A DNA stretch of 15,446 bases from positions 1 through 15,446 of the forward strand of contig DDYO01000171.1 in NCBI GenBank assembly GCA_002348045.1. The letters are read 5' to 3'. The notes beneath the pieces were generated by a model. It saw only the letters and a list, made by a program, of their open reading frames with translations. It had not been told where the DNA came from and ran no database searches. Shown here in pieces: positions 4,551 through 5,032 of this stretch. Numbering within the stretch: position 1 is the stretch's first letter; every line of letters starts with the position of its first letter. This DNA comes from Anaerolineales bacterium UBA2232 (GTDB lineage Bacteria; Chloroflexota; Anaerolineae; UBA2200). A program made the position numbers and the translations under genes.

Positions 4551-4594
4551 GCACATTAACCCAGATGCGTGTTCACCTGCATAGGAGGCACCGC

Positions 4595-5032
4595 ATGCGC
4601 TTTCTCGCCTGGCACCTCGACTACTTCAAATGCCAAATCACGGAGCAGGGCCGTTCACCCCTCGTGGAATCCTTTGACGATCCCGATACCACGTCCCAGG
4701 ACCTGCTGCTGGTGCTAGCCAGTGTGGAAAAGGAAGACGAAGCGGCCCCCGACATTGTGGCCGAGCGAGCCGCTGAAGAGATCGCCTCCCATGCCGCCAA
4801 CCTCAAGGTGCAGACGGTCGTTCTTCATCCCTTCGCCCACCTCTTCGGCCAATTGGGACGGCCGACCGCGGCGGTCCAAGTGCTGAAGGCAGTGGAAGAG
4901 CGACTACGGGCCAAAGGACTGACCGTCACCCGCACTCCATTCGGTTGGTTCAACGAGTTGGAGATTCGCTCCAAAGGTCATCCCCTGTCTCGAATCGCTC
5001 GCAAGGTCAGCGCCGATGCGGCAAGCCAATGA
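4595..5032 (+). CDS. Free-standing archaeal-type threonyl-tRNA synthetase editing domain protein
   Basis: This 145-residue protein matches, end to end, the N-terminal editing domain of archaeal ThrRS (DTD-like fold). Matching stretches are MRFLAWHLDYFKC, VLASVEKEDE, VVLHPFAHLF, TPFGWFNE and SKGHPLSR. In archaea this domain removes serine wrongly attached to tRNA-Thr; no aminoacylation or anticodon-binding domain is attached here. The start at 4595 is preferred over the in-frame ATG at 4565 because AGGAGG (4583-4588) lies six bases upstream and the family begins MR-hydrophobic. From memory of the Pyrococcus abyssi domain, His83 is kept (His82 here). Lys121 and Glu134 correspond to Asn120 and Arg133, and Tyr120 to Phe119. 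So it may be catalytically altered, a tRNA or D-aminoacyl-tRNA binder, or another deacylase. It stands alone, with gaps of more than 270 bases on each side. Confidence 0.85.
   Translation: MRFLAWHLDYFKCQITEQGRSPLVESFDDPDTTSQDLLLVLASVEKEDEAAPDIVAERAAEEIASHAANLKVQTVVLHPFAHLFGQLGRPTAAVQVLKAVEERLRAKGLTVTRTPFGWFNELEIRSKGHPLSRIARKVSADAASQ

Follow-up and report, generated by a model that had tools for sequence, protein, structure and literature searches.

The editing domain (PF08915) of archaeal threonyl-tRNA synthetase (ThrRS), as in Pyrococcus abyssi (1y2q), M. jannaschii (4rrf) and A. pernix (4rr6), is joined to synthetase and anticodon domains, but freer forms of it are known as well (statements on the literature, here and below, refer to the covered passages of the cited papers). 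ThrRS-ed of Crenarchaeota is a trans-acting Ser-tRNA(Thr) hydrolase (NF011500) that keeps the anticodon-binding domain (PMC8762117), while tRNA-Thr-ED occurs near SepCysS either alone or fused to SepRS (PMC5424206, PMC8762117). Here we describe a free-standing member of another kind, encoded at 4595..5032 on the forward strand of contig DDYO01000171.1 (assembly GCA_002348045.1) from the Chloroflexota Anaerolineales bacterium UBA2232; the whole stretch of 15,446 nucleotides that was analysed is called the window. The 145-residue window protein has neither a synthetase nor an anticodon domain. It shares with ThrRS-ed the editing domain and a design suited to action in trans, but it differs in lacking the anticodon-binding domain, and model NF011500 scores it at 76.5 bits, below the cut-off of 362. 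With the SepCysS-linked proteins it has in common that it stands alone and that a few relatives have cysteine-related gene neighbours; however, the serine-recognition motif, said to be completely conserved in the SepRS fusions (PMC8762117), is replaced in the window protein; for the stand-alone SepCysS-linked form the comparison is with its published description. There is no match to DTD/ATD (PF02580) at E 0.01, though a DTD fold is modelled for the 145 residues.

The reading frame is free of stops, and its ATG at 4595 fits the M-R-F-L with which the family members begin, a conserved feature; we favour it over an in-frame ATG at 4565 because of the Shine-Dalgarno-like AGGAGG at 4583..4588 (forward strand), which ends 6 nt before it. 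In a Pfam scan PF08915 was the sole family in this frame at E 0.01, covering model positions 1-136 of 137 with 127.1 bits against a gathering cut-off of 30.2. The ThrRS editing domains of M. jannaschii (residues 1-140), P. abyssi (1-141) and A. pernix were also matched by phmmer, while the NCBI models for ThrRS and for Ser-tRNA(Thr) hydrolase gave partial matches far under their cut-offs. Pfam profiles found no synthetase domain in this frame or in nine other scanned window proteins. The first-pass annotation, which had described a stand-alone archaeal-type ThrRS editing domain in a bacterium, was thus right on both counts: the match is to the whole length of the domain, and the frame has its own start and stop with no catalytic domain fused to it. 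The protein is not a ThrRS.

In the archaeal enzymes, the chemistry of this fold has been ascribed to RNA and main-chain atoms and not to side chains (PMC4491819). The serine hydroxyl is recognised by the main-chain nitrogen of Lys121, and in P. abyssi Glu134 reaches across from the second subunit and binds the alpha-amino group; H83A is inactive in P. abyssi, while the matching A. pernix mutant is moderately active (PMC4491819). Compared with this site of His83, Tyr120, Lys121 and Glu134, the window protein keeps only the histidine. Its residues 118-120 (WFN) and 130-133 (PLSR) align without gaps to Y-Y-K and PLAE of P. abyssi, so that the numbering is offset by one, as the first-pass annotation had stated, and a lysine or glutamate supplied from a shifted position is not seen. 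His82 (codon 4838..4840) corresponds to His83, Phe119-Asn120 (4949..4954) replace Tyr120-Lys121, and Arg133 (4991..4993) replaces Glu134; the exchanges are Y120F, K121N and E134R. The window protein also differs from the archaeal domain in F84, L122 and a (G/S)RS motif that follows the first strand, all specific to its clade; the motif is here Gly19-Arg20-Ser21 (4649..4657; all on the forward strand).

These replacements are not a peculiarity of one oddly mutated protein. Among 121 sequences, namely the window protein and 120 relatives listed of 570 database matches, His82 is present in 121/121, and both Asn120 and Arg133 in the 120 with letters at these positions, the other having a gap. Phe119-Asn120 and Arg133 were likewise found in 42/42 rows that represent the window and 41 of 46 loci from named genomes; L041, L042 and L044-L046 were left out of this reading because they are split, cut or weak. 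A separate set from genome searches held 83 rows, including 13 from genomes that the named-genome set also covers; three other stand-alone kinds (L117, L080, L093) and one row cut short (L099) were set aside. The remaining 79 rows, assigned to a kind by motif and clade, divide cleanly with no mixed row: all 40 of the window's kind have Arg133 and Arg-Ser at 20-21 (as GRS or SRS) and none has the lysine, whereas all 39 of the ThrRS kind have both lysine and glutamate and none has Asn/Arg, so that the pair is not a common feature of archaeal enzymes. Site 120 is Asn in 30 of the 40 rows, Ser in 4, His in 4, Thr in 1 and Phe in 1. Arg alone, without the pair, was seen in three ThrRS-kind rows (L114, L121, L150). 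Frames of the window's kind measure 139-288 aa, except for L088 (637 aa between stops, which we regard as extended by chance), and ThrRS-kind frames 393-676 aa, except for L158 (153). Two alignments were used, A1 with 21 of the 121 sequences and A2 with 82 rows (67 stand-alone, 15 ThrRS-kind); in A2 the Arg-Ser pair is present in 67/67 stand-alone and 0/15 ThrRS-kind rows, and the stand-alone clade is set apart by the columns G19, R20, S21, F80, F84, F119, N120, L122, A126 and R133. The exchange of Lys/Glu for Asn (or another non-Lys residue) and Arg is therefore a fixed signature of the whole clade.

The clade is under purifying selection, with dN/dS between 0.084 and 0.239 across 11 pairs of members, and His82 and the motifs FAH, PFGWF and GHPLSR are nearly invariant in the family; the conservation of the site together with dN/dS rules out decay into a pseudogene. 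The first-pass annotation had spoken of a loss of key residues. This holds as a comparison with P. abyssi but not as a loss, and since the substituted residues are themselves conserved, replacement is the better word.

The clade occurs in about a dozen bacterial phyla, as judged by record title, and in several archaeal groups. A genome scan gave 46 loci, and 45 of their genomes have a PF08915 match (G046 does not): 38 are bacterial, counting the weak carriers G044 and G045, and 7 archaeal (G013, G015, G016, G017, G024, G027, G041). By record title the archaea are Thermoproteota, Bathy-, Frey-, Jord- and Aenigmatarchaeota. Of 400 sampled Chloroflexota genomes 23 have PF08915, 21 of them of the window's kind; the exceptions are G224 and G398, which are of another kind, and G065 is cut short. 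The phylum of G015, which we take to be Asgard, has PF08915 in 19 of 195 genomes, and 17 of these 19 carriers form one clade in a quick tree of few columns. In Aenigmatarchaeota, the phylum of G027, one genome of 145 has a stand-alone match at E 1e-30 or better, the one already known, and in the phylum of G016, presumably Thermoproteota, one of 300 has a match of such strength. We regard this stand-alone subfamily as real, conserved and apparently undescribed; no description of the clade was found in the titles, abstract openings and passages of the open-licence literature searched, supplements lying outside this scope.

What the protein does has to be judged against the rest of the proofreading machinery of its carriers, which we assessed in the 46 related genomes with counts made by hand. 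A ThrRS match with tRNA_SAD inside was found in 30/38 bacterial carriers (three of them partial: G018, G021, G026), that is in 30 of the 31 with a detectable ThrRS; seven had no match of ThrRS strength (G010, G012, G029, G031, G039, G043, G045). Ten of 30 fetched tRNA_SAD loci hold a readable ThrRS, one of them from G046, and HxxxH and CxGPH are kept in 10/10. Six of the seven archaeal carriers have a full-length ThrRS that contains PF08915; the second PF08915 frame of G016 is 222 aa long. The remaining bacterial carrier, G008, has a ThrRS of archaeal type only: this metagenome-assembled genome has two ThrRS-length PF08915 frames (650 and 638 aa) in addition to the stand-alone protein, and no bacterial ThrRS match of sufficient strength. 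Most carriers thus keep an apparently complete Ser-tRNA-Thr proofreading system alongside the stand-alone protein. A separate DTD (PF02580) is present in 35/45 carriers, and 7 of the 10 without it are archaea; a role as replacement for DTD was on this count rejected for bacteria.

One could nevertheless suppose that the protein has kept the hydrolysis of Ser-tRNA-Thr as a backup for ThrRS, and that the replaced residues are functionally neutral. In P. abyssi both Y120A and E134A still hydrolyse Ser-tRNA-Thr (PMC4491819), so that altered residues by themselves do not mean lost catalysis, and the four tRNA-Thr genes read, from two carriers, have U73, the base that the archaeal editing domain is thought to require (PMC8762117, PMC11295145). 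On the other hand, a neutral change would hardly be expected to give so clean an exchange among 79 rows, the corresponding mutation of Lys121 is severely damaging (see below), and most carriers already have a ThrRS with an editing domain. We therefore consider this explanation improbable; judged by its residues and its genomic company, the stand-alone protein is not likely to edit Ser-tRNA-Thr.

We suggest instead that it is a free-standing, probably dimeric aminoacyl-tRNA deacylase of the DTD fold, which acts in trans and whose substrate is not Ser-tRNA-Thr but another charged tRNA, a prediction to which we give about an even chance. By analogy with the P. abyssi and A. pernix enzymes, the 2'-OH of A76 of the tRNA and main-chain atoms would perform the chemistry, His82 would hold the ester carbonyl, and Asn120 would take the place of Lys121 in positioning the water. 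Replacement of Glu134 by Arg should alter the amino-group subsite: Arg133, contributed by the other subunit, would make it positive, and a different aminoacyl group might then fit. DTD itself has Met at the position of Lys121 (PMC4491819), and a residue other than lysine need thus not end catalysis. Of the three options that the first-pass annotation had offered, new chemistry, another mischarged tRNA or a binder that no longer edits, we favour the second.

Three carriers yielded 14 distinct genes for tRNA-Thr, -Cys and -Gly (30 fetched loci), every one with U73, including the four tRNA-Thr genes from the two carriers where these were read, and a plausible set of targets would be the U73 tRNAs, i.e. 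Thr, Cys and Gly in the carriers looked at. We had considered the discriminator base as proof of tRNA-Cys, but this argument was dropped, as A73 had been expected in bacterial tRNA-Thr and U73 was found. Bacterial DTD needs a purine at position 73 (PMC11295145), and a DTD-fold enzyme that reads U73 could serve the tRNAs which DTD spares, although we put this forward as an idea only.

Several observations weigh against a deacylase with a new target. K121M and its equivalents were severely compromised in three archaeal domains, with the water displaced (PMC4491819), and loss of the lysine could therefore mean loss of activity. Site 120 varies among Asn, Ser, His and Thr and can even be Phe, which points to a position without a single chemical demand. 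As U73 is common to tRNA-Thr, -Cys and -Gly, the discriminator base singles out no target, and no neighbouring gene recurs across many lineages. The first two of these points would suit a protein that has given up editing and uses the old pocket to bind a protein, the end of a tRNA or some other acyl compound linked to a nucleotide, with the water-placing residue gone and variable; several other free-standing archaeal PF08915 groups also differ there, as if the fold had been variously reused. However, the near-invariant His82, FAH, PFGWF and GHPLSR resemble a working site around the CCA end and not a bare scaffold, and we think a pure binder unlikely, if still worth considering.

Other free-standing PF08915 proteins were recorded as well. 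In Asgard loci L180-L185, L188 and L198 (e.g. L183:3993-4394) the motif is FAH..(P/Q)(F/Y)GxF[N/Y/T]..GPSLAK/GK, and the same gene order recurs, with an adjoining hexapeptide-repeat gene (by profile in L180) and a geranylgeranyl-reductase-like gene (by profile in L183). Thermoproteota L189 and L190 have FSH..PFGWEK..GHPLAQ, next to an AIR-carboxylase-like gene (LarB-like, by eye) and a nickel-insertion gene (LarC-like), both profile-tested in L189. L192, L193 and L194 carry the full ThrRS-type motif WYK..GHPLxE; the PF08915 gene of L192 has a profile-tested phosphoglucomutase/phosphomannomutase gene beside it, and that of L193 a neighbour that looks alike by eye. Finally, the stand-alone proteins of Chloroflexota G224 and G398 (L080, L093) and of G484 (L117) are divergent, have other site residues and fall outside the main clades of the tree.

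The gene neighbourhoods of the relatives were called with simple scripts, by which some short genes are missed or invented. A conserved operon across lineages was not found in the homologue loci. Same-strand neighbours within 60 nt exist upstream in 26/70 and downstream in 19/71 cases, some of them false genes. NrdR is confined to four Chloroflexota loci (L090, profile-tested; L089, L091 and L094, by eye), and a neighbour that by eye resembles a proteasome subunit occurs in a single Asgard group only; ArgRS is a neighbour in L037 and, by eye, in L021 (gap of 258 nt), and other close neighbours, such as TtcA-like (L022), SDR and MFS genes, are unrelated. Some neighbours do relate to cysteine and selenium. 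In Aenigmatarchaeota L027, CysRS overlaps the editing-domain gene by 4 nt and NifS lies two genes on; two loci related to each other, L015 and L024, have CysE and then CysK upstream of the editing-domain gene, with CysK stopping 1 nt short of it (the profile tests covered CysK of L015 and CysE of L024). In Chloroflexota L004, L005 and L010 a gene resembling protein disulfide oxidoreductase (PDO) lies directly upstream (gap -1 to 6 nt) and has one in-frame TGA at its CxxC; Bacillota L025 has a similar gene at a distance of 331 nt upstream. We take these as probable selenocysteine (Sec) proteins with TGA in TPT-U-PxCP (L004:7228-8001, L005:7209-7994, L010:1457-2170, L025:6407-7261); TIGR02187 scores the part before the TGA at 143.1 (L010) and 132.8 bits (L025) against a cut-off of 185. 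A glutaredoxin gene with a TGA is convergent with the editing-domain gene of L030, and CoA-binding and OsmC genes follow that of L005. A TGA scan near 86 loci, duplicates included, gave 18 candidate frames, of which six are redox-like (five loci, one twice) and the rest look like chance.

This company raises the question whether the protein removes selenocysteine, or another wrong group, from tRNA-Cys mischarged by CysRS; Arg133, possibly together with Arg20, would prefer the selenolate, which is negative at neutral pH, to the thiol. CysRS is able to load Sec onto tRNA-Cys, the pKa of Sec being 5.2 against 8.3 (PMC11431864), and in archaea stand-alone tRNA-Thr-ED genes lie beside SepCysS and tRNA-Cys (PMC5424206, PMC8762117). 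SepSecS is present in 18/19 Asgard carriers against 91/176 other genomes (Fisher p 1.6e-4), but with 17 of the 19 in one clade this value overstates independence. SelB scores over its cut-off in 32/45 carrier genomes, among them 30/38 bacterial ones and 19/25 outside Chloroflexota; Sec use has been given as 21.5% of sequenced bacteria (PMC5029168), a poor baseline for environmental anaerobes, and the matched comparison, which covers Chloroflexota only, shows no enrichment (19/21 carriers vs 288/379 others, p 0.18; we take the SelB and PF08915 surveys to cover the same 400 genomes). SelB is under the cut-off in 8/38 bacterial carriers, including Desulfocucumis (G022), G010 and G030, and for the last two this is awkward, as their neighbours carry TGA. 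Moreover, the cysteine neighbours amount to two events found post hoc, and the lead was already in view when the tests on selenium were picked. We hold an editor of this kind to be quite improbable, and slightly more remote its specific version, a DTD-fold enzyme that hydrolyses Sec-tRNA-Cys, spares Cys-tRNA-Cys and reads the selenolate charge with the Arg that replaces the amino-group-binding Glu. The link to cysteine and selenocysteine is a weak lead with a small chance of being right.

Within the window itself, the upstream genes include a Gfo/Idh-type oxidoreductase and a glucuronyl-esterase-like gene, and the downstream ones CGGC, YeiH-like, GNAT, GreA-like (below cut-off) and acyl-CoA dehydrogenase genes; no role in translation is visible for these neighbours. 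The window carries no tRNA gene, and none of its scanned proteins is a SepCysS; the neighbours of relatives are annotated only in part. As partners the window neighbours were rejected, as only 2/12 other predicted proteins above 120 aa have any relative in 85 homologue loci: the 2664 frame is matched in L039 over a single stretch of 60 residues, and the YeiH-like 5932 frame has a relative in Bathyarchaeota L041 (27% over 299 residues), about 4.6 kb upstream of the family member. That member, found in one Bathyarchaeota genome, is split into two overlapping frames (L041:8001-8443). The CGGC protein has no relative among the predicted genes of the 85 loci. A phage origin was rejected, viral contigs giving no relative, as was a role in defence, PADLOC matching none of five window proteins tested.

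Several of the 120 listed relatives are named threonyl-tRNA synthetase by a source; for stand-alone genes this name is misleading, and the target of the family is probably not what it suggests. Should the selenium link be true, it would bear on how users of Sec exclude it from Cys codons; the literature passages covered name no editor with this task. If our preferred reading is true, that of a deacylase for another charged tRNA, the family adds a widespread factor to the five trans-editing families and superfamilies counted in a 2024 review (PMC11295145), one whose active site was rebuilt through a charge reversal at the pocket for the amino group of the substrate. Since the clade as a whole lacks the lysine that was supposed to be crucial, it also offers a natural test of the claim that RNA and the main chain carry the catalysis.
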